Both the position numbers and the translations under genes were made by a program. A stretch of DNA of 64,000 bases, taken from Pseudomonas brassicacearum (lineage in GTDB: Bacteria > Pseudomonadota > Gammaproteobacteria > Pseudomonadales > Pseudomonadaceae). This document shows, piece after piece, positions 1,082 to 36,246 of this stretch (position 1 is its first letter; every line of letters starts with the position of its first letter). Location: positions 62,001-126,000 of the forward strand of contig NZ_CP007410.1 of NCBI RefSeq assembly GCF_000585995.1, read 5' to 3'. The notes below the pieces were generated by a model. It was given only the letters and a program-made list of their open reading frames with translations, was not told the DNA's origin and searched no databases.

Positions 1082-2473
1082 TCAGCCCTCGGTCGGTCGG
1101 GCCCGGCGACGCACTTGCCAAGCCACCAACCCCAGCAACAACAAGCCCAGCACACCGACCAGCCCCCAAACGAGTTCGTCATCGCTGAGCAAAGGCTTCT
1201 CGATGCGCAGATAACCTGGGTCCTTGAGCAGCTCGCGCAGGGCCTGGTTGGCCTGTTCCAGGCTCACCCCCTGCAAACGCACGGCCGGGTTGGCGAAGCG
1301 GCCGTCTTCATAATCGCCCAGGGCTCCCCAATAGTAATCGGCCAAGGCACTGTTACCTTGAACCGCCCAGGTCTGATGCGCGATGGCCGCTCGTTTGATG
1401 CGCATGAAGCTGTCGGGGTCCAAGCCATCCTTGAGCAACGTACTGCGCAGCTCTTCGAGGGCTTGTTCGGCTTGCGGCAGGTCTTCGCGGGCCAGGTCCG
1501 CGTTCAGGCTGAAGAAGCCGACGCCGCCGAATACTTCCCGTTCCACCCACGGCCCATAGGACAGACTGCGGGCCAGGCGCAACTGGCGATAGAGCGCCCA
1601 GTCCAGGTAATCCTTGAGCAGGTCGAAGGTTTCGTCGTGTTGCTGCTCCAGCACCGGCTCCGGAAAAAGCCAGTGAAGCTTGGCGCCATTGCCGACCAGG
1701 CCACGAATGAGGTTGCGCTTGGTGACCGCGCTGTAGCGGATCTGTGGCAGCGGTTTGTGGGTGCTGGGTTCGACCGGCTCGAGTGCGCCAAAGGTGCGTT
1801 CCAGATAGGCCGGCAGCAACCGGTCGAGATCGCCGACCACAATCAGCGTCATGTTGTTCGGCGCATACCAGGCCTCGCGCGCCTGCTCGATCTTGGCGAG
1901 GGTGAGGCGTTCGACCTCGGCCCGTTCCGCGCAACGCAGGCCCAATTCCACTGCCAGTTGATTGCTGGCCTTGTGGCTCAGGTCCTGCTGGTCGAGCCAG
2001 CGTTGCAGATGAGTGTAATGGCCGCCGTCTTCGCGTTCGACCACCCGCTTGGCAGCCTCCAGGGCTTTGTCGTCGATGCGGGTGCGGGTCAACAGCGCCA
2101 GCAGCAGGTCGAGGATCTTGCGTTGATTGCGTGCCGGCGCTTCGATGACAAACGTGGTGTCGGCATTGCTCGTGAAGGCGTTCCACTCGCCGCCCAATGC
2201 CTGCATGCGTTCTTCCAGGCCGCCTTCGCCGCCCTCATCGACACCGCTGAACAGCAAATGCTCAAGCAGATGGGGCAGTTCCTTGTCGGCGCAGCTGAAA
2301 TCGTCCAGGCCCACGCCGACGACCAGCCGGATCGCCACGTGCCCGCGTTCACTGCCGGGCTTGAGCAGCAGTTGCAGGCCGTTGGGCAACGCATAACCCT
2401 CGACCTGGAATCGATCCTGGGCTACCGCAGGCAGCGAGCCGAGCAAAAGAAAGGCGAACAACAGACAACGCAT
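1082..2473 (-). CDS. M16 (insulinase/pitrilysin family) zinc peptidase
   Basis: 463 residues from the ATG at 2473, chosen over an upstream in-frame start because it opens with a clean signal peptide (MRCLLFAFLLLGSLPAVAQ). The inverted zinc motif HxxEH is present as HLLEH at about residues 68-72, and a downstream glutamate in VVERED (about 146-148) fits the third ligand of the M16 family. A second M16 domain without the motif follows. The C-terminus has a single transmembrane helix (about 428-448) with a basic tail RRRARPTEG, so the peptidase domain is probably periplasmic and anchored. The substrate is unknown. The single-gene unit is isolated between a REPIN and the Na/Pi gene. Confidence 0.9.
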   Translation of the reverse strand: MRCLLFAFLLLGSLPAVAQDRFQVEGYALPNGLQLLLKPGSERGHVAIRLVVGVGLDDFSCADKELPHLLEHLLFSGVDEGGEGGLEERMQALGGEWNAFTSNADTTFVIEAPARNQRKILDLLLALLTRTRIDDKALEAAKRVVEREDGGHYTHLQRWLDQQDLSHKASNQLAVELGLRCAERAEVERLTLAKIEQAREAWYAPNNMTLIVVGDLDRLLPAYLERTFGALEPVEPSTHKPLPQIRYSAVTKRNLIRGLVGNGAKLHWLFPEPVLEQQHDETFDLLKDYLDWALYRQLRLARSLSYGPWVEREVFGGVGFFSLNADLAREDLPQAEQALEELRSTLLKDGLDPDSFMRIKRAAIAHQTWAVQGNSALADYYWGALGDYEDGRFANPAVRLQGVSLEQANQALRELLKDPGYLRIEKPLLSDDELVWGLVGVLGLLLLGLVAWQVRRRARPTEG

Positions 2474-2643
2474 AACGGGCTTCCTGGCGGCTGAGTGGGG
2501 TCCATGTGCCGGGCAGGCCGTTATCGCAAGCAAGCGTGTTCCCACCTTGAATCGATTGGCTGGATGACACGGTGGGAGCGTGCTGGCTCGCGAATGGCTT
2601 TAAACCCAAGCCACTGTTACTGACTGGCCAATGCGCCAGTCGT

Positions 2644-4302
2644 TCACGGCGAATGGGTGATGTCGGACATTTCATCCGCCGCCAGCGCACCGATCTCGGC
2701 GGTTTCCAGTACCACGTAGGCGCTGCCACAGAACAGCGAATTGAGGCGCCGCATGTCGGCGATCAGTTCCAGGTGCAAGGAGCTGGTCTCGAGGCTTTGT
2801 ACGACTTTGCGCTGTAGACGACTGACGTGGGCGTGGGCCATTCGCCGTTCCTGCGCCCGAAAGCGCCGTTTCTCCCGCAGCAACTGACGGGCGCTCTCCC
2901 GATCGGCACTGAGAAACACCGACAGCCCCAGCCGGAGGTTGGCGATCAAATGGCTGTGCAGCCCGGCCAGTTCTTCCAGGCCCACATCGGAAAATGAACG
3001 GCGTTGGGAGGTTTTCTGCTGCTGGACCTTGCGCAACATGCGTTCGATCAGGTCGCTGGCCAGCTTCAGGTTGATCGCCAGCTCAATGATTTCCGCCCAG
3101 CGGCGGCTGTCCTGTTCGCTGAGGTCCTCACGGGGCATTTGTGCCATGTACAACTTGATGCTGCTGCACAACGCCTCAACGTCATCGCTCATGCGCCGCA
3201 CTTCCTGGGTGACCGCCGTCTGCTGACCGCGCAGCACGTCCAGCATGGCTTCGAGCATGTTTTCGATCAGGTCGCCGATGCGCAGGGTTTCCCGGGCGGC
3301 ATTGGCCAGCGCCAGGCTCGGCGTGGGGAGGGCGGCGAGGTCCAGGTGGCGGGGCTTGGCCGTGCCGTTGAGGTCCGGACGCTCCGGCAGCAGCCAGGCA
3401 CAGAGCCGGGCCATCGGTGCGACGCTGGGCAGCAGCACCAGGCAACGCACGGAGTTGTAGAGCAGGTGAAAACCAATGACCGTTTCCTGGGGACTGAAAT
3501 CCAGACCGTCCAGCCAGCCCACCAGCGGATCGAGTACCGGAATGATCAGCAACAGGCCGATCAGCTTGTACAGCAGGCTGCCCAGTGCCACCTGACGTCC
3601 GGCGGCGTTCTGCATGCTGGTGCTGAGAAAGGCCAGTATGCCGCTGCCGATGTTGGCGCCGATCACCAGGCCGATGGCCACCGGCAGGCTGATCACCCCG
3701 GCACCGGCCAGGGTTGCGGTCAGCAGCACGGCGGCCAGGCTGGAATAGGAAATCATCGCGAACAGCGCGCCCACCAGCGCATCGAGCAGGATGTCGCCGG
3801 TCAGCGAGGCGAAGATCACCTTCACGCCCTGGGCCTGGGTGATGGGCGCGGCGGCTTCGACGATCAATTGCAATGCCAGGATGATCAGGCCCAGGCCGAT
3901 GCTGACCCGACCCATTTGCCCGACGCGGGTCTGTTTGCGCGAGAGGAAAAAAATCACCCCGAGGAAAATCAGCAACGGTGACAACCACGAAAGGTCCAGG
4001 GTCAGCACCCGCGCCATCAGCGCGGTACCGACATCGGCGCCGAGCATGGTTGCCAGGGCAGGGGTCAGCGCCATCAGGCCCTGGCCGACGAACGAGGTGA
4101 CGAGCATGGCCGTGGCATTGCTGCTCTGGACCATGGCCGTGACCATGATGCCGGCGACGAACGCCAGCCAGCGCTTGGACATGTTCTGGCCGATGACATG
4201 GCGCAGGTTCGAGCCATAGACCCGCAAAATGCCGGTGCGGACGATGTGCGTGCCCCAGATCAGCAGGGCCACGGCGGAGAGTAGATTCAGCAGGGTCAGC
4301 AT
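2644..4302 (-). CDS. Na/Pi cotransporter family protein with PhoU-like C-terminal domain
   Basis: 552 residues from the ATG at 4302; an upstream TTG in frame is less likely. The N-terminal part (about 1-310) has two related blocks of membrane helices containing the QSSNAT and SYSS(L)AA signature segments typical of the Na_Pi_cotrans (NptA/PF02690) family. From about residue 330 to the end the protein is helical, charged and soluble, as in PhoU-like domains fused to these carriers (for example E. coli YjbB). The expected role is sodium-coupled phosphate movement, with export possible as proposed for YjbB. It stands alone; no Pho box was identified upstream. Confidence 0.9.
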   Translation of the reverse strand: MLTLLNLLSAVALLIWGTHIVRTGILRVYGSNLRHVIGQNMSKRWLAFVAGIMVTAMVQSSNATAMLVTSFVGQGLMALTPALATMLGADVGTALMARVLTLDLSWLSPLLIFLGVIFFLSRKQTRVGQMGRVSIGLGLIILALQLIVEAAAPITQAQGVKVIFASLTGDILLDALVGALFAMISYSSLAAVLLTATLAGAGVISLPVAIGLVIGANIGSGILAFLSTSMQNAAGRQVALGSLLYKLIGLLLIIPVLDPLVGWLDGLDFSPQETVIGFHLLYNSVRCLVLLPSVAPMARLCAWLLPERPDLNGTAKPRHLDLAALPTPSLALANAARETLRIGDLIENMLEAMLDVLRGQQTAVTQEVRRMSDDVEALCSSIKLYMAQMPREDLSEQDSRRWAEIIELAINLKLASDLIERMLRKVQQQKTSQRRSFSDVGLEELAGLHSHLIANLRLGLSVFLSADRESARQLLREKRRFRAQERRMAHAHVSRLQRKVVQSLETSSLHLELIADMRRLNSLFCGSAYVVLETAEIGALAADEMSDITHSP

Positions 4303-26867: not shown

Positions 26868-27073
26868 CTAGCTGCACGCCAAGTGCAGCCGCTACCGTTC
26901 GGATTCATGACCTGCATTTGTAAGCCACTGTATCCAGCGCCTTCACAGACTCAAAACAACGCATAAACGCCGGTTCTCGAACATAGCCGGTATACATCCC
27001 GTTGCCAGAATCCTCCCCATCGACTCGCCATCGGATCCCCGAATGACGAGCCCTTATTTCAGGAGATCTTGCG

Positions 27074-27721
27074 ATGAATACCCAATCCTACCGTCCTCAA
27101 GGCTGGCAGCTGTTCAGCCTGATCGCCGCCCTGGTGGTGGCAATGAGCATCGCGGCTGTCGCGGTACAACCCGACCTTATCGAGGGCCTGCGCAGCGCCA
27201 TCCGCGCCACCGCACGTTCCTCCTTCGCACTGTTTCTGATCGCGTTCACCGCGTCGGCCTTTGCCGTACTGGTGCCTTCACCGCTCGCCAAGGCACTGGT
27301 CCGCGAGAGACGCTTCATCGGCCTCGCCTTTGCCTTCTCCCACCTGGTGCATGCCGTGCTGATCTACGCCTATGGGCAACTCAACACCGAGTTCTGGCCC
27401 GCCCGCACCGTTGCCAACAACATCCCGGGCGGGACCGCCTACGCCTTCATCCTGCTGATGGCCCTGACCTCATTCAAAGGGCCCGCCCGACTGCTGGGGC
27501 CCAAGGCCTGGAAGGCATTGCATGTCACCGGCATGTGGGTCATCGCCGCGGTATTTGCCTTCTCCAACTTCAAACGTATCCCGATGAGTGACTGGTACGT
27601 GCTGCCTTTCGGCCTCACCTGCGCCGCCGTGGCGATCCGACTGGTCGGCAAGCTGGCCATGGCTAACAAACGCAGCCAAGCCAGGCAAGCGTCGATGCGC
27701 CGGGCAGCGGTCGCCTCCTGA
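27074..27721 (+). CDS. Ferric reductase-like transmembrane protein
   Basis: 215 residues, ATG with AGGAG upstream. About six membrane helices (near 15-34, 50-70, 80-103, 118-135, 150-170 and 175-192). Haem-ligand-like histidines occur in FAFSHLVHAVLIYAYGQ (about 90-106) and WKALHVTGMWVIAAV (about 149-163), the pattern of the ferric-reductase transmembrane domain (PF01794) also found in MsrQ-like proteins. It lacks a C-terminal FAD/NAD domain, so it would need an external electron donor. No partner is adjacent; specific substrate unknown. Confidence 0.85.
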   Translation: MNTQSYRPQGWQLFSLIAALVVAMSIAAVAVQPDLIEGLRSAIRATARSSFALFLIAFTASAFAVLVPSPLAKALVRERRFIGLAFAFSHLVHAVLIYAYGQLNTEFWPARTVANNIPGGTAYAFILLMALTSFKGPARLLGPKAWKALHVTGMWVIAAVFAFSNFKRIPMSDWYVLPFGLTCAAVAIRLVGKLAMANKRSQARQASMRRAAVAS

Positions 27722-27890
27722 TCGTCCAGACAGGCGGCCCGCCATAGCGGTCCGGAACACGCGAAGCGGCTTTCTGGTTGTTTATTGCAAAGCGCTCCGT
27801 GGCGAGGGCGCTGCTCCTCACCGACAGCGAACGCGGACGCCTGCGCGGGCTGCCTTTTGGCGAGGCTGTTATAGTTTCCTGCCCTGAGCG

Positions 27891-28529
27891 ATGGAAATGG
27901 ATCTCGTGAATCTATGGGTAGTACGGCATGGGGAAACCGAGCCTAACGCTGAGAAGCGCTACGTCGGATCCATTGATCCCGGGCTAAATCAGCGGGGTAG
28001 AGAGCAGGCTCTCGCGCTAGCCAAGCACTTGCCCGACAACCTGGATGCGATGGTTGTATCCCCTCTGCGTAGAGCCCAAGAAACCGCCGTTATCCTGAAC
28101 CGCACGTTGAACCTCCCAAGCTCAACCCTGGATGCGTTTCGCGAACGCAGTGTGGGTGTTTTCGAGGGGCTGACTCAGGCTGATGCAAGCGAGCGTTACC
28201 CGCAGCTTTGGTCTCAAAACATCACGCGGTGCTGGGCGGTTGGGCCAACGGATGGAGAGTCGGTTCGCGACGTGGTTCAGCGTGTTCGAGAGGGGCTGCT
28301 CGAGCTGCAAAAGCGCTACCCGTCGAAACACGTTTTGCTGGTCGCCCACGGCTTCGTTGCAAAGACGATCCGGGCCTTGGCGAAAGCAGACTTTTCAGAC
28401 TTCTATGATTGGCAGCTCGGCAACGGGCAGATGCTCTTGCTGGAGAATGTTGATGTCGAGCTACGCGATGCTTTCGGTCAGAAGCGCCCTGAAGGGTGGG
28501 ATCCTTCGGATTTGGTTTTGGAAAGGTAA
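27891..28529 (+). CDS. Histidine phosphatase family protein (phosphoglycerate mutase-like)
   Basis: 212 residues from the ATG at 27891; a GTG at 27906 (giving VNLWVVRHGET) is an equally credible start, since neither ATG has a good SD. The catalytic motif is LWVVRHGETEPN (RHG about residues 12-14), the second arginine is in SPLRRAQETA (about 57-66), the acid is in RERSVGVFEGLT and the second histidine in VLLVAHGFV (about 148-156). This is a complete branch-1 histidine phosphatase active site; the substrate cannot be told. GC is lower than in core genes upstream. TTATAG at 27868 may be a -10. Confidence 0.88.
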   Translation: MEMDLVNLWVVRHGETEPNAEKRYVGSIDPGLNQRGREQALALAKHLPDNLDAMVVSPLRRAQETAVILNRTLNLPSSTLDAFRERSVGVFEGLTQADASERYPQLWSQNITRCWAVGPTDGESVRDVVQRVREGLLELQKRYPSKHVLLVAHGFVAKTIRALAKADFSDFYDWQLGNGQMLLLENVDVELRDAFGQKRPEGWDPSDLVLER

Positions 28530-28623
28530 GGGCGTTGGTGGTTGACTGCTTACGATGAAGCGGGAGTTCAGGTAAGCCAGTGGATCGTGGTATCCGAGCT
28601 CATGAGCAACTGTCTGTCGAGAA

Positions 28624-28701
28624 CCCGAAAAAGAAATGATCGTATTCCTCAAAAAACTGGATCGCCATCCTGACACCGCCCTTAAAGCCGACAAAGGTCC
28701 C
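28624..28701 (+). pseudogene. Remnant copy of the 3' end of the TPR gene at 24.6 kb
   Basis: In frame, 28624-28671 encodes PEKEMIVFLKKLDRHP, matching AEKEMTVFLKKLDRHP at the end of the 24627-24938 TPR protein, with several silent changes (GAG to GAA, GTG to GTA, AAG to AAA). No start codon or TPR repeats remain. A REP arm with the same inner CTTGAGTGCGAAGCACTCAT follows both copies, so the duplicated segment included gene end and REP. The rest of the 28530-28843 gap shows no gene. Confidence 0.75.
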
Positions 28702-28745
28702 GTGGCGAGGGAGCTTGCTCCCGCTTGAGTGCGAAGCACTCATAG
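28700..28745. repeat. Single REP arm, GTGGCGAGGGAGC class
   Basis: GTGGCGAGGGAGCTTGCTCC plus inner GAGTGCGAAGCACTC; the partner arm is missing. Counterpart of the arm at 24960-25000. Confidence 0.8.
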
Positions 28746-28843
28746 AGTAAGGCTTTGCTAAGTGCCGGCGTCAGCGCACGATCAGCTTATGGCATCATCC
28801 GACTGAAGGGCTACATGGCTCAAGATTAACCGAAGGAACGACG

Positions 28844-29125
28844 ATGCTTCGCACCTTGCTTATGGCAGCAACCGCTCTATTTCTCGCCGCCTGTGCAGGC
28901 ATAGCTCACGACACACCTGTAGCTAAACAGCAAATGAAGCAGGATCTGCATCTGGCCACGATCATAGACTCCTCCAGAATGAACTGGTGCGTTCACCCCT
29001 ACGGGAGCGCTCCGGGATGTAAGCCGGAGAAGGGCGTTGGCATTGTTACCCCGGACGGCTTAGTGATGGCCCATTTTGTCGAAGGTAAGTATGTGTTAGC
29101 ACGTATTCTTAAATCGGGGAAGTGA
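28844..29125 (+). CDS. Small lipoprotein of unknown function
   Basis: 93 residues, ATG preceded by AAGGA. Signal peptide with lipobox LAAC (lipidated cysteine at 17), then AGIAHDTPVAKQQ; the mature part is short and contains two more cysteines (WCVHPYGSAPGCKPEKG, about 47-63) that could form a disulfide. No family is recognised. Its stop overlaps the ATG of the next frame at 29125 (TGATG), so the two are translationally coupled. Confidence 0.75.
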   Translation: MLRTLLMAATALFLAACAGIAHDTPVAKQQMKQDLHLATIIDSSRMNWCVHPYGSAPGCKPEKGVGIVTPDGLVMAHFVEGKYVLARILKSGK

Positions 29126-29439
29126 TGTGCTCAGCCGTACCTGGCGGAGCATCTGCAGACGGGTATTTTTTTGCGTTTGCTTCCAATGCGGCTTATATGC
29201 TGGGCCCCCTGAAAGCCGATCGGGATGAGATCAATACGCGCTTCAAAGCCAACATGTTCTACTATCTTCACAGCAAGGGTCAACATAGCTATAGCGGGCC
29301 GGAAGTGAACTTTCAGCGTCCGACCGGTGAAAAAATCAAACAGATAACTTTCATTCCTGTCGGTCTGTCTACTGTAAGTACCACTGAAATGATTGATGTG
29401 CTAGAAATTTACAATCCCTGCGCTGACGGCGGCAGTTAA
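29125..29439 (+). CDS. Hypothetical protein coupled to the lipoprotein
   Basis: 104 residues from the ATG at 29125, which overlaps the stop codon of the lipoprotein gene by one base. It begins MCSAVPGGASADGYFFAFASNAA and has no convincing signal peptide of its own. I do not recognise a family. The tight coupling suggests it works with the lipoprotein; alternatively an old frameshift may have split one longer lipoprotein gene, since the first product is very short. Confidence 0.65.
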   Translation: MCSAVPGGASADGYFFAFASNAAYMLGPLKADRDEINTRFKANMFYYLHSKGQHSYSGPEVNFQRPTGEKIKQITFIPVGLSTVSTTEMIDVLEIYNPCADGGS

Positions 29440-29542
29440 TAGACTGTTGGACGGTTCATAGAGCGCGTTCGGAAAAATTGCGGTAAAGCAGTATGACTAT
29501 TTGTAATGGATTTTATTTGAGTTTCACTTTGTCGAGAACAAT

Positions 29543-29984
29543 ATGAAAATTCGAAACGCCTTACTAACCGATGCGGAATCGGTGTCTAAACTCCTAGGGC
29601 AGCTAGGTTACCAAGCCTCGCCACAGCTTATCCGGAATAAGATTGAGGCTTTAGACGTTAGTACCTGCGATACCAGTGCTACTGGCTCAAGACGGTGAAA
29701 ATATTGTTGGTGTTATAAGCTTGCACGTACTTGAGCTGTTTCATCAGCCAGGCAGACTCGGACGTATTACCTCGTTAGTCGTTGACGATAACTTCCGAGG
29801 ACAAGGAGTAGGGGCAAAGCTAGTTGCCGCTGCCGATGCGTTTTTTACAAGTCAACTTTGCATCCGGGCTGAGGTGACTAGCAGTGACCACCGAATAGAG
29901 GCCCACACATTTTACCAGCGGCTAGGTTACGCGGCTGACGAGCGTCGGTTTGTAAAACAATATGGATTTTTCGAGGCAGAGTAG
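29543..29984 (+). pseudogene. GNAT acetyltransferase gene broken by a frameshift
   Basis: The first part (MKIRNALLTDAESVSKLLGQ... from ATG 29543) and the second part (VLLAQDGENIVGVISLHVLE... in the next frame to 29984) together read as one GNAT protein of about 147 residues. The acetyl-CoA loop VVDDNFRGQGVGAKLVAAAD and the C-terminal FYQRLGYAADERRFVK are intact in the second part. Total length is one base more than a multiple of three, so a single-base insertion between about 29655 and 29675 would explain it. A sequencing error is the alternative. Confidence 0.7.
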
Positions 29985-30019
29985 TTTAAATTCAGCGCGT
30001 AAACGAAAGAGGACTAAAT

Positions 30020-30060
30020 GAAGGGACAAGTTTATTTACTGGAAGTAAATCTGTCCCTTT
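30020..30060. repeat. GGGACA...TGTCCC hairpin repeat, copy 2
   Basis: AAGGGACAAGTTTATTTACT and AGTAAATCTGTCCCTTT face each other with TTTG following. It probably works as a bidirectional terminator between the acetyltransferase remnant and the next gene. Confidence 0.65.
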
Positions 30061-30084
30061 GTTCGGGAGCTGGAGGGATATTGA

Positions 30085-30495
30085 ATGAGTCTTGATCTGC
30101 ACATAGAAGCTGATCGCGTTTTGACAATTCCGATGCTGAGCACGGCATTGGCAAAAGCCGGTGCGACAGAGGTCGAAAATGTGAATGGCGCTTTGGAGGC
30201 CGCCTTCGCCTCCGGGCTAAGGCTGACAGCAGACGACGAAACCACTGACTTCACGATATACGCCGAAGACAAGAAAGGTCTTGAATTCAAAGTCGGTATG
30301 CGTTGCAGCATTAGAATCAAAGGTCCTGAACCTGAAGGTCAGTCATCTATGGATGAGCTGGAAAAAATCGCTGAGTCGATTGCTCAGACTTGCTCATCCC
30401 TCTTCCTGCTAACCTTCCAGTATGAGAGTACGTTGTACTGGCGGGACGCAATGGGCCTGCACCGTTCCCGGGCTTACGGTCGCCGAGAAATTTGA
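30085..30495 (+). CDS. Hypothetical protein
   Basis: 136 residues, ATG with GGAGG eight bases upstream. It is a soluble, acidic alpha/beta protein with no signal peptide (MSLDLHIEADRVLTIPMLST..., ...KVGMRCSIRIKGPEPEGQ...). No family is recognised; the small size and acidity are compatible with an immunity-type protein, but no toxin gene is next to it, so this is only a thought. The last 14 residues are basic (GLHRSRAYGRREI) and unlike the rest, so the original 3' end may have been replaced. Confidence 0.6.
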   Translation: MSLDLHIEADRVLTIPMLSTALAKAGATEVENVNGALEAAFASGLRLTADDETTDFTIYAEDKKGLEFKVGMRCSIRIKGPEPEGQSSMDELEKIAESIAQTCSSLFLLTFQYESTLYWRDAMGLHRSRAYGRREI

Positions 30496-30627
30496 CCCTC
30501 CCGCTATGGGGCGGAAGCAGCCGCTCATCACTGACCGCTTTCGGCCGATTGCTGCCTGTCACCGAAGGTTGCAATCGACTGTGGATTCAACGTATCCGTC
30601 CGGCCAACACACCTTCCTGAGCCCAAC

Positions 30628-30670
30628 AAAAAGGGGGCAGATTTCTTAAAATAAATCTGTCTCCTTTTTT
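30628..30670. repeat. GGGGGCAGATTT...AAATCTGTC hairpin repeat, copy 3
   Basis: AAAAAGGGGGCAGATTT and AAATCTGTCTCCTTTTTT form a stem followed by T runs on both strands. It lies in the 30496-30903 gap, which otherwise holds only copy 4 and a short upstream frame. Confidence 0.7.
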
Positions 30671-30755
30671 GTCGTCCCCTTTTTTGTAGCGCAAAGTCAG
30701 GTTTTTAATGTTTTCCTTAATTTTATCAGCTAGTTAGCTGTAAATAAGTGCCATT

Positions 30756-30795
30756 CGGGACGGGTTTATTTTGTAAAAATAAAGCTGTTCCCTTT
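30756..30795. repeat. GGGAC...GTTCCC hairpin repeat, copy 4
   Basis: GGGACGGGTTTATTTT and AAAATAAAGCTGTTCCC are inverted arms around a 5-base loop. It lies within a possible upstream in-frame extension of the membrane-protein frame, which argues against that extension being coding. Confidence 0.6.
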
Positions 30796-30823
30796 CTGGT
30801 CGTGACGAAAGGAAAAATCGCTC

Positions 30824-30907
30824 ATGAGCAGATTATCGAGCAAGTGCGCGAAATTGGATCCATCGTACGACTTTGCTCTGGCGCAAAATGGCTTTTTGAT
30901 ACTATGA
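30824..30907 (+). CDS. Possible 27-residue leader peptide
   Basis: Begins ATG at 30824 after AAAGGA (ten bases upstream) and reads MSRLSSKCAKLDPSYDFALA... to a TGA that overlaps the ATG of the three-helix membrane protein at 30904 (ATGA). This is the pattern of a translationally coupled leader frame and would supply ribosomes to a start codon that has no SD of its own. It could also be chance or the 5' part of a frameshifted gene. Confidence 0.35.
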   Translation: MSRLSSKCAKLDPSYDFALAQNGFLIL

Positions 30908-31524
30908 TGGGTTTAACCTTGGGTTATGGTCGCATGCAGATGAAGTCAGACGACGAAGAATACAAGCTTTACGAGAAAATTTACCTCGCAGAAGCCGAAC
31001 GAAAAGAAAAACTGATGTCGCGTCTCAATCTACCTTTGGCAATGATTGTGGCGCTGCTTAGCTTTCTTTCTTATCTTTTGTCGAAGGCACCAAGCGTCGA
31101 AACCACCGAAGGGGTTCTTTTCTGGATCGCTTATCTTATGGCCGGAGTCTATCTCTTGGTCGCGATGGCCCATTTTTCAAAAGCTTGGCGGGTGCGCAAG
31201 GACGATTTGGTCATTCCGACTGCTGAAAAACTCGAAAGTCACCGAAAATCGTTGTTCGACTATTATGATGGGAATATCGTACAAGCCAATGGGCAGTTCA
31301 TGCAGACCATGATGGACTATTACATTATGGGCGCAACGAGAAACGCGACGAATAATGATAGCCGTAGTGCCCAGCTAGACCAGTTTTCTAAATATGTTAT
31401 CTACGCGGTTATCGCGTCAGTTATCGCTTTTATTCCAGCTTATGCAGCAACTAACAACAGGGAGATATGTGATGTCCGACCAAAAGCCGCCACCACCACC
31501 GCCACCACCGATGCGCAATGTTAG
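30904..31524 (+). CDS. Three-helix membrane protein of unknown function in the defence cluster
   Basis: 206 residues from ATG 30904; the frame is open back to 30748 but that part overlaps a hairpin repeat. The N-terminus is acidic and helical (SDDEEYKLYEKIYLAEAERK). Helices lie at about residues 43-62 (NLPLAMIVALLSFLSYLL), 74-94 (VLFWIAYLMAGVYLLVAMAHF) and 169-186 (YVIYAVIASVIAFIPAYA), with a cytoplasmic loop containing FDYYDGN and NATNNDSRSA. The two-helix hairpin plus distal helix resembles small membrane effectors in bacterial conflict systems (SLATT-like in layout), but no family is confirmed. The 3' end overlaps the proline-rich microprotein gene. The codons are AT-rich compared with flanking core genes. 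Confidence 0.65.
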   Translation: MMGLTLGYGRMQMKSDDEEYKLYEKIYLAEAERKEKLMSRLNLPLAMIVALLSFLSYLLSKAPSVETTEGVLFWIAYLMAGVYLLVAMAHFSKAWRVRKDDLVIPTAEKLESHRKSLFDYYDGNIVQANGQFMQTMMDYYIMGATRNATNNDSRSAQLDQFSKYVIYAVIASVIAFIPAYAATNNREICDVRPKAATTTATTDAQC

Positions 31525-31585
31525 AGGTGATGTGCCGTTGCCACGTCGTGAGCCACCGCCACCGCCGCTACCCAAGAAAGCTTAA
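31472..31585 (+). CDS. 37-residue proline-rich microprotein overlapping the membrane protein gene
   Basis: ATG at 31472 with GGAG seven bases upstream, in the +1 frame relative to the membrane protein gene, which it overlaps by 53 bases. The product has a run of eight prolines at residues 6-13 and a second run of five near 28-32, with a basic end (PKKA): SDQKPPPPPPPP ... REPPPPPLPKK. Fifteen or more of 37 residues are proline. Such polyproline segments need EF-P for translation and bind SH3/WW-like or profilin-like pockets. The SD and intact frame beyond the upstream stop support it as a real gene; function unknown. Confidence 0.6.
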   Translation: MSDQKPPPPPPPPMRNVRGDVPLPRREPPPPPLPKKA

Positions 31586-31599
31586 GTTGAAAGAAACTT

Positions 31600-31627
31600 A
31601 ACCCCTGAGCTTAAATCGCTCAGGGTT
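31600..31627 (+). terminator. Hairpin after the microprotein gene
   Basis: AACCCCTGAGC and GCTCAGGGTT form a stem with one bulged C around TTAAATC. The T run is poor (GACTCTTATC), so it may be a weak terminator separating this unit from the TIR-caspase genes. Confidence 0.5.
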
Positions 31628-31867
31628 GACTCTTATCTGCAACGGATCGGAACTTAATTGGCAAATTTTTCAGAGTAGATCTTGTCCGTTGGTAGATGTG
31701 CGAATCAGTAGCTTCGTCGGCCGACGTGCGCCAGCCGTCAAAATCGAAGATACCGTGCGCTGTAAAGTTTGTTTTTTTAAAAAATAAATGCTCTAAAAAA
31801 ATTCATAGTTTATTTTTATCTAGGAACTACGACTGATAGGTACTTGACCGCATTGAACCTGATGATC

Positions 31868-31896
31868 TTGAGAGGCTGACATCTAGGTGATATCAC
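31868..31896 (+). promoter_or_regulatory. Possible promoter of the TIR-caspase operon
   Basis: TTGAGA at 31868 and TATCAC at 31891 are 17 bases apart, giving a leader of about 25-30 bases before the TIR start. The rest of the 31586-31929 gap is very AT-rich and shows no gene. Confidence 0.4.
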
Positions 31897-31929
31897 AAAC
31901 TTAAACGCAAGTAGATATGGATTTCTCCA

Positions 31930-32316
31930 ATGAAAACACGCGCTTTCATTTCTTTTGACTATGACAATGATGTAACCTTGAAAAACCTTCTCGTCGGCCA
32001 AGCAAAGCTGGAGGACAGCCCTTTTTATTTAGCGGATTGGTCAATCAAAGAACACATTGATGATGACTGGAAGGCGAAAGCTAGAACGAGGATTAAGGCT
32101 GTTGATGTTGTGTGCGTAATATGCGGCGAGAACACCGATACAGCCGTCGGCGTAAGCGCGGAAGTAAAAATTGCTCAAGAAGAAAATATTCCGTACTTTT
32201 TTCTTAAAGGCTACTCAGAAGCTGTGTGTGTCAAACCTAAAGCTGCATTACTTGGTGACAAGCTTTACAAGTGGACGTGGGATAATCTGAAGGCTTTGAT
32301 CGGCGGGGGACGATAA
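31930..32316 (+). CDS. TIR-like domain protein (ThsB-like)
   Basis: 128 residues, a single domain of the TIR-like ThsB/DUF1863 type. It begins with the strand-one motif KTRAFISFDYDND (2-14), then FYLADWSIKEH (32-42), AVDVVCVICGEN (57-68) and the helix with the putative catalytic glutamate, VGVSAEVKIAQEENIPYFFLKGY (E78). In Thoeris systems such TIR proteins detect phage and convert NAD+ into cyclic ADP-ribose-type signals. The gene overlaps the caspase gene start by one base (TAATG), so the pair is coupled. Base composition is far more AT-rich than the core genome, indicating acquisition by transfer. Start lacks a good SD. Confidence 0.88.
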   Translation: MKTRAFISFDYDNDVTLKNLLVGQAKLEDSPFYLADWSIKEHIDDDWKAKARTRIKAVDVVCVICGENTDTAVGVSAEVKIAQEENIPYFFLKGYSEAVCVKPKAALLGDKLYKWTWDNLKALIGGGR

Positions 32317-33302
32317 TGAAAAAAGCCTTAGTAATTGGCATAGATGCATATCCTAGTGCCCCGTTAATGGGTTGTGTGAATGATGCTGTTGCTATCGCTG
32401 AGTTGCTAGAGAATGACGGAAACGGTGATCCCAATTTTTCTGTTGTAAAATTGGTCAGCAATGAACAGGAAGTTACGAGTGAGTCGCTGGTTAATGCGAT
32501 CTCTGAGTTGTTCAGCGGGGAGGCTGATACGGCGCTCTTATATTTTGCCGGGCATGGAATAATCGTGCCCGAGACAAATGCTGGATATATTGTGAGTAGT
32601 GATGGACGCCGTGGCGCTTGGGGCACTTCACTTTCTGAAATTCTCGGTTTGGCGAATAGAGCCCACCCGAAGATTAAGTCTTGTGTGATCATCCTTGATT
32701 GTTGCCATTCGGGTTATGCTGGAGAAGTGGCGGGAGTTGATGGAAATGCATCAGCGATCGGTACTGGTGTCACGATATTGACTGCTAGCCATCGGGAAGG
32801 TGGCGCAATGGAGGAGGACGGCCGAGGAATTTTCACGGATATATTGCTTGATGGTCTTAGAGGCGGGTGTTCGGACATTCTTGGAAATATCACGCCGGCT
32901 GCAATTTATTCGCACGTCGATCAAACCCTTGGGCCATGGGAGCAGCGGCCAATGTATAAAGCAAATGTTCAGCATTTTGTAACATTGCGAAAAGTTGAAC
33001 CGAAAGTCCCAAAGGATGTGTTGCGCAGGCTAGTGACATACTTCCCCAACAAGACTGATGTTTTCGCACTTGATCCATCTTTCGAGCCTGATAGGATAAA
33101 CATTCCAGAGAAATATAGGCATCTGCCCGTTAACGATGAAAATGTAAAAGTCTTTAAAGAACTCCAAAAATGCAATCGTTATGGTCTAGTGGTTCCGGTA
33201 GATGCAGATCACATGTTTTATGCCGCTATTAATTCCACAGGATGTAAACTGACAGGCCTTGGGGCGCACTACAGAAAACTGGCAGAAATGAAGAGGATAT
33301 AA
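32316..33302 (+). CDS. Caspase-like (C14) cysteine protease with C-terminal winged-helix-like domain
   Basis: 328 residues. The peptidase domain (about 1-225) starts KKALVIGIDAYPSAPLMGCVNDA and carries the catalytic dyad: histidine in YFAGHG (H80) and cysteine in ILDCCHSG (C130). Later segments TILTASHREG and GIFTDILLDGL fit the caspase fold. The C-terminal 100 residues contain a helix-rich segment ending KELQKCNRYGLVVPVDADHMFYAAINS..., which looks like a winged-helix element and may sense the signal. In type IV Thoeris a TIR protein makes N7-cADPR, which activates a caspase-like protease that degrades cell proteins and stops phage growth; this pair has the same two components. No separate cargo or adaptor gene follows. 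Confidence 0.88.
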   Translation: MKKALVIGIDAYPSAPLMGCVNDAVAIAELLENDGNGDPNFSVVKLVSNEQEVTSESLVNAISELFSGEADTALLYFAGHGIIVPETNAGYIVSSDGRRGAWGTSLSEILGLANRAHPKIKSCVIILDCCHSGYAGEVAGVDGNASAIGTGVTILTASHREGGAMEEDGRGIFTDILLDGLRGGCSDILGNITPAAIYSHVDQTLGPWEQRPMYKANVQHFVTLRKVEPKVPKDVLRRLVTYFPNKTDVFALDPSFEPDRINIPEKYRHLPVNDENVKVFKELQKCNRYGLVVPVDADHMFYAAINSTGCKLTGLGAHYRKLAEMKRI

Positions 33303-33445
33303 TTTAAGCGTAGTTTTTTGACTCCATTGATAAAGCAATGCAGAAAAAATTAAGGGCGGGTTCTGGCGTCGTCGCTTCTACGGTTTTTATTTATGCAACC
33401 TCGTCTGAGTGAGACGGTGAATTTGGTATTTACCGAGATTGATCG

Positions 33446-33706
33446 TTAGATATCAATTTGTTGCAGGATGAAATCCAAATAGCGTTTGACTTGCTCTCTA
33501 TCGCTATCCTTTTCTTTTTGAGAAAGGTTGTGGTAGGGCGTTTTTAATTGCTGCTCCCATCTCTCAACAAGTTCGCAAGGAATTGTCAGGGAACCGTCAC
33601 GGTTCTTTGAGCACTGAGAATGAAGATATTTCTGCCAGTGGGACCAGCGCTCGTGTTCGATTGCTGCAAGTGGTTCTAATAGTTCAAGTAAATCCTGCGC
33701 TAACAT
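33446..33706 (-). CDS. Small RyR-like domain protein
   Basis: 86 residues from the ATG at 33706 (GTGAG upstream); the frame is open to 33871 and ATG 33748 is an alternative start. The sequence LAAIEHERWSHWQKYLHSQC... ELVERWEQQLKTPYHNLSQKEKDSDREQVKRYL has the EHxxW...PY..L...EK..DR pattern of bacterial/phage RyR-like domains, which bind small ligands or nucleotides. Such short proteins are common in phages and mobile elements. It points towards the caspase gene on the opposite strand; 143 AT-rich bases with no clear terminator separate them. Function here is unknown. Confidence 0.65.
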   Translation of the reverse strand: MLAQDLLELLEPLAAIEHERWSHWQKYLHSQCSKNRDGSLTIPCELVERWEQQLKTPYHNLSQKEKDSDREQVKRYLDFILQQIDI

Positions 33707-34077
33707 TTGTTTACTCACTTTTCTCGGTGGGTTTTGAGCCGGCGGCATGTCATCGTAGCAATTGCTGCGGTAAAAATCTGCCGCGTCTTGTAGAACATGT
33801 GCTCTAGAGTTGATGCAAGGTAAAGTACAGTGCTTGCCAGAACAACTCGTATCGCTTACGTACATTATCACCCCGGGCTACTAAAGTATGGAGGTGCGCC
33901 GCTTCACTCTACGAAGAGGGCTACTCCCTGGGGACGTAGTCTTTCATCTGTATTTTGCCATCTGATCCCTTTATTTTGTAGATACACGGGATGCCTGCTT
34001 GAGTGTGGTGGGATACGCGGGGAAAACTATCCGAGACTTCTAGAGCTTTTTCGTCAGCTCCTACGGACGGAAGAACC

Positions 34078-34107
34078 AAAACCCGACGCAGAACGCCGGG
34101 TTTTTTC
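34078..34107. terminator. AAAACCCG/CGGGTTTTTT bidirectional terminator
   Basis: Stem ACCCGACG/CGCCGGGT-like with flanking A and T runs, 17 bases beyond the stop of the DUF6124 gene on the minus strand. The stretch 33749-34077 has no gene; at 33873-33892 it holds a piece (CCGGGCTACTAAAGTATGG) resembling the DUF6124 leader. Confidence 0.7.
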
Positions 34108-34123
34108 ATGGGCAAACGTTTAC

Positions 34124-34486
34124 CTACTGCCGCGGCTCCACATTATCCAACACCCGATTCGCCAACAACGAACCCAGCTCAATCAACTGCTGAATCCCCA
34201 GCGCCACATGACGCCTCGATCCATCCAACTCAAACGCCAAATCACTCACCATCGCATCAGCCGAAGCCAGCGTCTCACTGAGGTTAGCGAGCAAGCATTC
34301 GTTATCGAGGCCTTTCACGACGGTGAATAGCTGGCCCGGTTTTGGTTCATCTTTAGATTTTTCAGATTTCGGCAGCAAGTAGTGATCGAGCACGCGTTTG
34401 GTGGTTTCGTCTTGCTTCTTGGCTTTGGATTTTGCGGACTGTGCGGTGGAGTCTGTTTCTGGTGGGTTCGGAGTTACTTTGAACAT
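34124..34486 (-). CDS. DUF6124 family protein
   Basis: 120 residues. It starts MFKVTPNPPETDSTAQSAKS and ends with the conserved block [50 protein letters not shown], the hallmark of the Pseudomonas DUF6124/DUF3077 small proteins. The function is unknown; the C-terminal half is predicted to be a helical bundle. AGGA lies ten bases upstream of the ATG. A structured leader and a distal promoter-like element shared with another small gene lie upstream. Confidence 0.88.
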   Translation of the reverse strand: MFKVTPNPPETDSTAQSAKSKAKKQDETTKRVLDHYLLPKSEKSKDEPKPGQLFTVVKGLDNECLLANLSETLASADAMVSDLAFELDGSRRHVALGIQQLIELGSLLANRVLDNVEPRQ

Positions 34487-34610
34487 TGGTGTGATCCTCT
34501 AACGGGCCGCACCATTTCGCTACTAAACGGAATGGAGGCGGCTGTGCGCAAGTTAGTAGACCGGTGATCACACCAAACCCGGCGCGCCCGAAGGCGCCAT
34601 GCGCACAGCC
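34487..34610 (-). promoter_or_regulatory. Structured 5' leader of the DUF6124 gene
   Basis: On the minus strand GGCTGTGCGCA (34610-34600) pairs with TGCGCACAGCC (34550-34540), enclosing the hairpin GGCGCC-TTCGGGC-GCGCC. TTGGTGTGATC (34578-34568) can instead pair with GATCACACCAA (34498-34488) that covers the SD and start region, giving mutually exclusive folds. This resembles a conditional leader such as a riboswitch or RNA thermosensor. No ligand class is recognised. Confidence 0.5.
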
Positions 34611-34666
34611 ACCATCGAGAATAGGCTAATGCCTATCTGATGAGACTTGTACAACCGTGATGTGAA

Positions 34667-34682
34667 CCGGGCTACTAAACCC
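34667..34682 (-). promoter_or_regulatory. CGGGTTTAGTAGCCCG hairpin in the DUF6124 upstream region
   Basis: Perfect 5-bp CGGGT/GCCCG-type stem presenting TTTAGTAGC. The same TTTAGTAG core occurs at 34519-34530 and at 33877-33890 on the same strand, so it is a repeated motif of this leader family. Confidence 0.45.
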
Positions 34683-34689
34683 GACCACT

Positions 34690-34781
34690 GATGGGCAGTG
34701 GCAGGAAAACAATAGAACCCCGGGACAAGGCGCACAAGCGGGCGGATTCTGGCGTAGTTGTAGGCAAAGGCGCAAGGATGC
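34690..34781 (-). promoter_or_regulatory. Conserved upstream element of the DUF6124 gene
   Basis: Minus-strand text includes TTTGCCTACAAC, CTTGTGCGCCTTGTCC and TTCTATTGTTTTCCTGCCAC. The same words in the same order and spacing occur on the plus strand at 36311-36396 before another small gene, so this is a conserved promoter or leader element. The remainder up to the IS left end at 34883 shows nothing else. Confidence 0.6.
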
Positions 34782-34874
34782 GTGGGTTGGTGGTGGGGTG
34801 TAGGTGGAGTCTGTAGGAGCAGGGTTTGTCGGCGATGCGGGTGACTTGTTTTGGTCTGGAACCGAGTCGATTTC

Positions 34875-34882
34875 ATCGCGAG
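34875..34882. repeat. Left 8-bp target site duplication of the IS element
   Basis: ATCGCGAG immediately outside the left end of the insertion sequence; identical copy at 36247-36254. Confidence 0.85.
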
Positions 34883-36246
34883 GGGGTGTCAGAAATTTTG
34901 TGTTCGGGCATAACATGAGTAAGAGGTGCATGTATGCCAACCAAGAAGAAACCCGCGTTGCGAGAGCTGCCGAAAATCCCGAAAGAGCTGCTTGAGCAAT
35001 TTACCGATGGACCGATGACCGCTGAAGCCATTGAGGATGCCTCTGCGGCGTTCAAGAAGGCTTTGATCGAGCGAGCCTTGAGTGCTGAGCTTGGCCACCA
35101 CCTGGGCTATCCGCCGGGCGCGCAGCGCCCAGAGGATGAAACCAACCAGCGCAATGGCAAAAGCGGCAAGACGGTTCTAACCGGTGATGGTCCGCTCCGA
35201 CTGGATATTCCTCGCGACCGGGACGGCAGTTTTTCTCCCATCCTGATCCCCAAACACGAGCGGCGTTACACTGGGTTCGACGACAAGATCATCGCCATGT
35301 ATGCCCGCGGAATGACTGTTAGAGAGATCCGTGCGTTTCTTTCCGAGCAGTACGGTACGGACGTTTCTCCCGACTTCATTAGCTCTGTAACCGACGAAGT
35401 CATGGCAGAGATCGGTGCCTGGCAACAGCGGCCTTTGGAGCCGATGTATCCGGTTATTTTCTTCGATGCTCTGCGGGTCAAAATCCGCGAAGAGGGGCTG
35501 GTTCGCAACAAGGCAATCTACCTGGCCTTGGGTGTTTTGCCTGACGGAACACGCGATATTCTCGGCATTTGGATCGAAACGACCGAGGGCGCCAAATTCT
35601 GGATGAAGGTGTTCAACGACCTCAAGACACGCGGCGTCGAAGACGTGTTGATTGCTGTGACCGATGGCCTTAAAGGCATGCCGGAAGCTCTCAGCGCTGT
35701 ATTTCCGGACACGACACTGCAAACATGCATTGTTCATCTGATCCGCAACAGTCTTGATTACGCGGCTTGGGATAAGCGCCGCGAACTGGCCAAGGCGCTC
35801 AAACCGATCTATCAGGCAGTCACCGCCGAAGCGGCCGAGCAAGCGCTGGATGCGTTTGAAAGCGGGCCATGGGGCAAGCAGTATCCGACGGTAGTGGCTG
35901 CTTGGCGCCGCGCTTGGGATCGTGTGATTCCTTTTTTCGTTTTCCCGCCGGCGATCCGAAAAGTGATCTACACGACCAACGCCATTGAGAGCATCAACGC
36001 TCAACTGCGCAAGATCATCAAGACCCGAGGCCACTTCCCGACCGACGATGCGGCGACCAAGCTGATCTGGCTTGGGCTGCGCAATATCACAGCAAACTGG
36101 GGTTCAGCGGCCCATGACTGGAAAAGTGCGATGAATCAATTCGCGATTCTGTACGGAGATCGATTTATCAGACCGACCTGGTAAAAGCATGGCCTGCCTA
36201 ACGGCAGGCCGTTACCGGCCCGCACACAAAATATCTGACAGTCCCC
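34883..36246 (+). mobile_element. IS256 family insertion sequence
   Basis: 1,364 bases with imperfect terminal inverted repeats: left GGGGTGTCAGAAATTTTGTG, right (complement) GGGGACTGTCAGATATTTTG, both continuing into TGTxCGGGC. It carries one transposase gene and is bordered by a perfect ATCGCGAG duplication. The intact duplication and gene suggest a fairly recent insertion. The target is within a REP arm (ATCGCGAG/TAAGCTCGCTCCCAC). Confidence 0.92.
34934..36184 (+). CDS. IS256 family (mutator-type) transposase
   Basis: 416 residues, full length for the family. N-terminal region (about 1-100) with KALIERALSAELGHHLGYP and the NQRNGKSGKTVLTGDGPL segment, then the DDE nuclease core: aspartate in VIFFDALRVKIRE (about 173-185), aspartate in LIAVTDGLKGMPEALSAVFP (about 239-258), the CIVHLIRNSL motif (about 266-275), and the glutamate in VIYTTNAIESINAQLRK (about 342-358). 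No frameshift or stop. A GGCCTGCC/GGCAGGCC hairpin at 36191-36210 follows the stop codon. Confidence 0.95.
   Translation: MPTKKKPALRELPKIPKELLEQFTDGPMTAEAIEDASAAFKKALIERALSAELGHHLGYPPGAQRPEDETNQRNGKSGKTVLTGDGPLRLDIPRDRDGSFSPILIPKHERRYTGFDDKIIAMYARGMTVREIRAFLSEQYGTDVSPDFISSVTDEVMAEIGAWQQRPLEPMYPVIFFDALRVKIREEGLVRNKAIYLALGVLPDGTRDILGIWIETTEGAKFWMKVFNDLKTRGVEDVLIAVTDGLKGMPEALSAVFPDTTLQTCIVHLIRNSLDYAAWDKRRELAKALKPIYQAVTAEAAEQALDAFESGPWGKQYPTVVAAWRRAWDRVIPFFVFPPAIRKVIYTTNAIESINAQLRKIIKTRGHFPTDDAATKLIWLGLRNITANWGSAAHDWKSAMNQFAILYGDRFIRPTW

Follow-up and report, generated by a model that had tools for sequence, protein, structure and literature searches.

A chromosomal TIR–caspase module of Pseudomonas brassicacearum and its linked RyR-like gene, a possible brake on the TIR signal

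The TIR–caspase pair and its genomic setting

The window, a 64,000-nucleotide stretch of a Pseudomonas brassicacearum genome held in one 6.65 Mb contig, carries a ThsB-type TIR gene (31930..32316, + strand, 128 aa) followed by a gene for a caspase-like (C14) protease (32316..33302, + strand, 328 aa). Both open reading frames are present as given in the original prediction and overlap by one base within ...GATAATGAAA..., where a direct reading of the sequence confirms the TAATG stop/start overlap (32314..32318, +) that had been described as joining the two genes. The candidate catalytic glutamate of the TIR (E78) and the dyad of the protease (H80/C130) had also been correctly placed, and alignments of 15 TIRs and 16 caspases, each set drawn from the best matches, show no variation at these residues. 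A ThsB-like fold, set beforehand as a test of the prediction, was found for the TIR with the Pfam family ThsB_TIR (PF08937; 3.7e-7, 30.9 bits against a cut-off of 21.2), the PADLOC ThsB profile (3.8e-6), and an AlphaFold2 model (pLDDT 86) for which the top PDB match of the predicted structure is 8fz9 (TM 0.70–0.71); a sequence search returned no relative of the TIR in the PDB. The protease matches Pfam Peptidase_C14 (PF00656; 71 bits against a cut-off of 21.4) and the PADLOC caspase model, its predicted model is MALT1-like, and its profile matched metacaspases alone amongst the PDB sequences, with an NCBIfam scan returning only a caspase model under the cut-off. Residues about 230–328 of the protease form a distinct C-terminal part, helical for the most part, for which VIA-align gave no family and was uninformative. 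Because the ThsB_TIR and Peptidase_C14 scores exceed the Pfam cut-offs and the key residues are invariant, the pair is not a chance product. A scan for promoters and terminators gave no signal over chance, and the intergenic RNA fold is unremarkable (z 0.49).

By itself, the TIR–caspase pair is ordinary. A search of a database of 5.8 billion proteins (E ≤ 1e-3) returned 4,760 matches for the protease and 4,352 for the TIR, with identities of at least 67% and at least 72%, respectively, amongst the 120 listed for each, and since the relatives number in the thousands, a new or divergent pair (a "divergent variant" had been offered as one option) was rejected. Amongst named relatives, the closest one retrieved comes from Pseudomonas graminis (locus L009), with a caspase that is 96% identical. 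In four other Pseudomonas genomes (loci L002–L005), the caspase is about 48–51% identical and adjoins TIR ORFs, and amongst the related caspase loci in genomes a TIR gene lies ≤300 bp from the caspase in 78 of 80. A second, longer TIR (about 158–200 aa as called) flanks the pair in loci L013, L015, L016, L022, L029, L031–L034, L036, L038, L039, L043, and L152–L154; it matches TIR_2 and ThsB_TIR in both of the examples scanned (L016 and L153) and may widen phage recognition.

The G+C content of the pair is 0.454 compared to 0.599 for the window, with 15 of 627 tiles of the same length equal or lower. The AT-richness had been read as a sign of recent acquisition, and while the compositional difference stands, "recent" is unsupported given a synonymous distance of ~0.98 between the caspase and that of P. 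graminis, the closest relative retrieved. The window and P. graminis have a cassette in common (30865..33721) that consists of an upstream membrane-type gene, the TIR, the caspase, and a third, RyR-like gene, aligned by blastn in two blocks (30865–31650, 83.5%; 31900–33721, 81.3%); at E ≤ 1e-5, blastn matched the 13 kb P. graminis locus nowhere else in the window. The membrane-type protein (258 aa, by eye; 30748–31524, +) matched no Pfam family over the cut-off, and a small proline-rich ORF (31472–31585, +) overlaps the 3′ end of its gene in another frame, the region as a whole forming part of the cassette. A relative (G010) has conserved flanks (window 26889–27722 and 34131 onward), between which about 14.5 kb (L175, 2161–16654), with a few short matches at most, takes the place of the 6.4 kb that includes the cassette in the window. 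As this relative holds different DNA between the conserved flanks, the cassette site (window about 27722–34131) is variable. Other genes at the G010 site include one for an M78 peptidase-like protein, which PADLOC scores as RmrA. In the window, a Mutator-family transposase (34934–36184, +) is found downstream of the cassette.

A RyR-like gene linked to the caspase family

The interval of the original prediction (31930..33302) covers the pair and omits a RyR-like gene that lies 143 bp past the caspase stop, on the opposite strand and convergent with the caspase, hence not co-transcribed with it. The mechanical ORF spans 33446–33871 (−); since blastn similarity to the P. graminis locus ends at 33721, the gene lies inside the cassette and probably starts at GTG 33718 or ATG 33706 (33446..33718, − strand, stop at 33446; 86–90 aa). 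The ORF has a G+C content of 0.441 against 0.599 for the window, and dN/dS relative to P. graminis is 0.196 over 86 codons, and therefore the gene is under purifying selection. The window protein matches Pfam RyR (PF02026) at 6.1e-5 with 23.6 bits, under the curated cut-off of 27.4, and for this reason it is named RyR-like and not a member of the RyR domain family. PF02026 matched 23 of 24 family members scanned at E ≤ 0.1, the best being the window protein itself and the other matching members, by E-value rank, also under the cut-off; the precomputed PF02026 annotation is present on two of the 120 database relatives listed. In a comparison with solved RyR Repeat12 domains, a profile built from five sequences picked out RyR1 chains with a whole-sequence E of 1.6e-5, though no single stretch passed by itself. 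PADLOC returned no match for the two RyR-like copies tested, and a nucleotide search of E. coli genomes found no DNA match to the gene.

The RyR-like gene is linked to the type IV-like caspase family in two phyla and two deep caspase clades. Amongst 72,556 plasmid records, tblastn with the window RyR-like protein matched 21 records, as did the homologue from L091, and the caspase matched 102 records, 40 of them listed. A caspase place is present in 20 of the 21 RyR-like records, against about 0.03 records expected to have both if the two were independent. The matched parts lie ≤300 bp from each other in 19, and in 18 the caspase is followed directly, in the same direction, by the RyR-like gene. 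These counts treat every near-copy as a separate record (four are of Rhizobium etli type and two are from Sphingomonas paucimobilis, as judged by identical match scores). Other arrangements include a RyR-like gene just upstream of the caspase (NZ_MK318989), one 3 kb from the caspase and directly behind a second TIR gene (NZ_CP155753), and one beside a caspase remnant that consists of the last 60 residues, just upstream (NZ_AP017657.1). The decayed module in NZ_AP017657.1 (L090, 3744–4213) is next to an IS1380-type transposase.

Annotated gene order, inspected in 17 of the 21 plasmid regions, revealed operons of TIR, caspase, and "hypothetical protein" in Pseudomonas, Citrobacter, Rhizobium, Sphingomonas, Paenarthrobacter, Pseudarthrobacter, Rhodococcus, Methylobacterium, Bradyrhizobium, and Rhodopseudomonas; in two of these the TIR is also annotated as hypothetical and was identified by profile. 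Plasmids from Agrobacterium and Curtobacterium carry the third gene without annotation. The hosts of the linked gene belong to the Gamma- and Alphaproteobacteria and the Actinomycetota, and in the plasmid operons the third gene is co-directional and usually overlaps the caspase stop or lies no more than ~20 bp from it. As it is annotated as a hypothetical protein or unannotated in the plasmid regions inspected, tools for finding defence systems may overlook it. In several loci, a calcineurin-like metallophosphoesterase (~460 aa) comes next after the RyR-like gene (L152 4228–5604, L153 4225–5604, L154 4224–5606, and L150 4216–5571), and in L094 (5445–6818) a protein of this kind and length comes next after the caspase, which suggests a TIR-TIR-caspase-RyR-phosphoesterase variant of the module.

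The RyR-like gene is lacking in 32 of 52 plasmid records of type IV-like loci and in 76 of 80 type IV-like genome loci (five of the 76 have <700 bp of 3′ flank). Since most of the loci are without it, the gene is an optional accessory, and an obligate three-gene system is ruled out by the same counts. The four genome loci that carry it differ in arrangement: 134 bp from the caspase (P. graminis L009), 0.5 kb from the caspase and directly behind a second TIR (L016), 2.3 kb from the caspase and directly behind a TIR (L026), and 1.4 kb from the caspase and divergent from a TIR (L035). Outside the starting genome, the gene was found in 0 of 297 Pseudomonas genomes with the single window protein as the query, and, with alignment A4, in 0 of 368 genomes of the class, 0 of 389 of the order, 0 of 296 of the family of G688, and 0 of 384 of the class of G688; the five draws overlap in part, and in the four that used the A4 alignment the best 13–17 first-look candidates were scored per genome where more existed. 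The searches picked up 10 of 10 gene-bearing plasmid records from outside the query alignment, against 0 of 3 records lacking the gene, and 5 of 5 whole genomes were detected with an alignment from which they had been excluded. Together with the linkage on plasmids, the background draws and these controls disfavour the RyR-like gene as a chance neighbour.

On a caspase tree (n = 105, from which 5 rows with too little 3′ flank for RyR scoring were dropped before the counts), the distribution of the RyR-like gene requires 7 changes, which fall in two deep clades and of which well-supported branches force 4 or more; the mean for shuffled data is about 21, with near-copies favouring the clustering. 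The tree and inspection of the loci also revealed close relatives of the pair without the gene. Pairwise distances of the caspase and TIR are correlated (r 0.75), those of the RyR-like protein and the caspase weakly (r 0.32; 23 pairs, near-copies included), and those of the RyR-like protein and the TIR not significantly (r 0.13, p 0.085; 21 pairs, near-copies included). Co-evolution of the RyR-like gene with the pair is unsupported by these correlations, and because its distances track the caspase weakly and the TIR not significantly, the gene is modular.

Proposed role and competing explanations

In our interpretation, at a probability of about 0.5, the locus is an anti-phage module like type IV Thoeris, carried on the chromosome and linked to a RyR-like accessory whose most likely role is that of a brake on the TIR signal. 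By analogy with the described system, infection would lead the TIR to cyclise NAD+ to N7-cADPR using E78, the N7-cADPR would activate the caspase-like protease (dyad H80/C130), and the activated protease would degrade cell proteins and halt phage growth. The RyR-like protein is proposed to be a signal-handling accessory that may act on N7-cADPR either by binding or by hydrolysis at the distal-ribose C1″; we infer a role in the signal of the linked TIR by likeness to phage RyR proteins. As a brake it would spare the protease from basal signal or allow the response to end, in a role that may resemble that of ring nucleases. A brake is likelier than an essential part, given that the pair is also found on its own and that close relatives are without the RyR-like gene. 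Separate regulation of the accessory would be in keeping with its convergent orientation in the window.

A more specific form of this proposal is that, in several lineages, type IV Thoeris systems have their own RyR-like enzyme that hydrolyses N7-cADPR (C1″-N7) and so resets or restrains the caspase, which we put forward as a tentative possibility. If true, the bacterium itself would encode a built-in off-switch for a TIR alarm, one that is kin both to the proteins with which phages disarm Thoeris and to a domain found in animal ryanodine receptors. H73, W76, and D124 are kept in 22 of 22 operon-linked RyR-like copies and occupy the motif positions of H75, W78, and D117 of the phage enzyme RyDEP, an equivalence by motif only, since a direct profile comparison with RyDEP is weak (E 0.35). 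The RyDEP residue H100, its site placed by motif spacing, has no equivalent in 22 of 22 operon copies, which have R, K, Q, A, T, or N at this site (Q in the window).

The RyR-like protein might instead be a positive part of the system, as a receptor or co-effector that aids the caspase or as a guard that senses phage interference. The tight, co-directional spacing behind the caspase in the plasmid operons, the conservation of H73, W76, and D124, and the binding of ADPR-type ligands by RyR domains (PMC13232231, available text) are all in keeping with this explanation. However, close relatives of the pair without the gene imply that the core does not need it, and its orientation and distance vary within the caspase clade of the window, making a positive part rather unlikely.

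The locus could also be a plain two-gene type IV Thoeris pair in which the RyR-like gene is an unrelated neighbour within the same cassette. In the window the gene runs opposite to the pair from a start of its own, it is absent from most type IV-like loci, and RyR distances correlate poorly with TIR distances. Still, all 21 plasmid copies are beside or near a member of the caspase family or its remnant, the gene is otherwise missing from the genomes sampled, and the linkage is present in separate caspase lineages, which renders an unrelated neighbour improbable.

Similarly improbable is that the gene is a captured phage counter-defence, kept by mobile elements to enter hosts that bear Thoeris. 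Stand-alone phage relatives do exist: the RyR-like subfamily occurs in 10 of 50,697 phage records, nine of them cyanophages, in a search that says nothing on more distant RyR proteins because RyDEP itself was not reached, and a pattern scan of 2.9 million viral contigs returned 41 RyR-like loci, 40 without a caspase in the DNA examined. Many of the linked copies are also plasmid-borne. On the other side, the plasmid copies are always beside or near a caspase, and the top match amongst the phage records is itself a TIR-caspase-RyR operon (2228–3891) on an unverified faecal scaffold (L096, MT835687.1). This scaffold is labelled bacteriophage and is probably plasmid DNA, because its caspase is identical to one on a Sphingomonas paucimobilis plasmid. 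Further, the tree allows the operon-linked copies to form a single clade that excludes the stand-alone viral copies (p-AU 0.884 over 68 columns, where a value over 0.05 denotes compatibility with a clade and no proof of one), which speaks against repeated phage capture; recent capture is likewise not favoured by the 68-column tree. Lastly, a housekeeping or stress-death module that is not anti-phage, a reading open insofar as the anti-phage function is taken over from annotation and the literature, is very improbable given an architecture equal to that of the tested system (PMC12847820, available text) and the occurrence of the module on plasmids and at a variable chromosomal site.

How a cell that makes a TIR signal keeps it low or ends it appears to be an open question. 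A phage sponge against TIR–caspase was reportedly described in Chen 2026. The linkage of the RyR-like gene to a TIR–caspase module makes the question of an off-switch testable with two small proteins, and would tie bacterial TIR–caspase immunity to a domain common to animal ryanodine receptors. No report of a RyR-like gene beside TIR–caspase genes was found in the available portions of PMC12847820, PMC13373217, PMC12799240, PMC13232231, PMC9503650, PMC7159879, and PMC8195603, and the association may already be in Rousset 2025, Chen 2026, Burroughs 2015, or Burroughs 2020. In the available text of PMC13232231, no mechanism for degrading 2′/3′cADPR is known before the phage enzyme, and cADPR is implicated in animal ryanodine receptors.

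Comparison with known systems

The locus has a ThsB-like TIR, a caspase-like protease with a His/Cys dyad, and a conserved operon pairing of the two. The founding description of type IV Thoeris is said to be that of Rousset et al. 2025. In the available parts of the sources, type IV Thoeris is a tested system of a TIR and a caspase-like protease (PMC12847820) and is also named in PMC13373217. The locus shares with it a ThsB-type TIR and a C14 protease in a single operon with conserved catalytic residues, and differs in the addition of the linked RyR-like gene, the likeness being drawn from the described architecture. The type IV Thoeris-like reading of the original prediction agrees with that architecture and with the retention of the catalytic residues, but it overlooked the linked third gene. 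The effectors of type I and type II Thoeris carry SIR2 or TM-macro domains (PMC12847820, available text). A ThsB-type TIR that makes a NAD-derived signal would be common to those types and the present locus, whereas the effector here is a caspase-like protease. There is no SIR2-SLOG or TM-macro ThsA beside the TIR: the coupled gene is Peptidase_C14, and the ten other neighbouring proteins (27891–36184) gave no match to SIR2, SLOG, or macro domains.

Ring nucleases are signal-degrading accessories encoded alongside type III CRISPR-Cas systems. The idea of an accessory that degrades the signal of its own system would be the same for a RyR-like brake, but the signal and the fold are different, and the likeness is a functional analogy only.

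The closest comparison for the RyR-like protein is with phage RyR-domain proteins, which, in the available text of PMC13232231, cleave or sequester 2′/3′cADPR. The key residues of the glycosidase RyDEP are a catalytic dyad (H75/D117), an adenine-stacking W78, and a phosphate-binding H100, and of eight phage RyR homologues tested, six bound and none hydrolysed (PMC13232231). RyDEP is phage-encoded, while the RyR-like gene adjoins bacterial immune genes, and the RyR-like protein is without an H100 equivalent and has a weak profile match to it; the work on RyDEP concerns 2′/3′cADPR, and the signal of type IV Thoeris is N7-cADPR. Both are small proteins, RyR-like by profile, that retain the HxxW and D motif positions, and any action of the RyR-like protein would, as with RyDEP, be on cADPR isomers made by a TIR.
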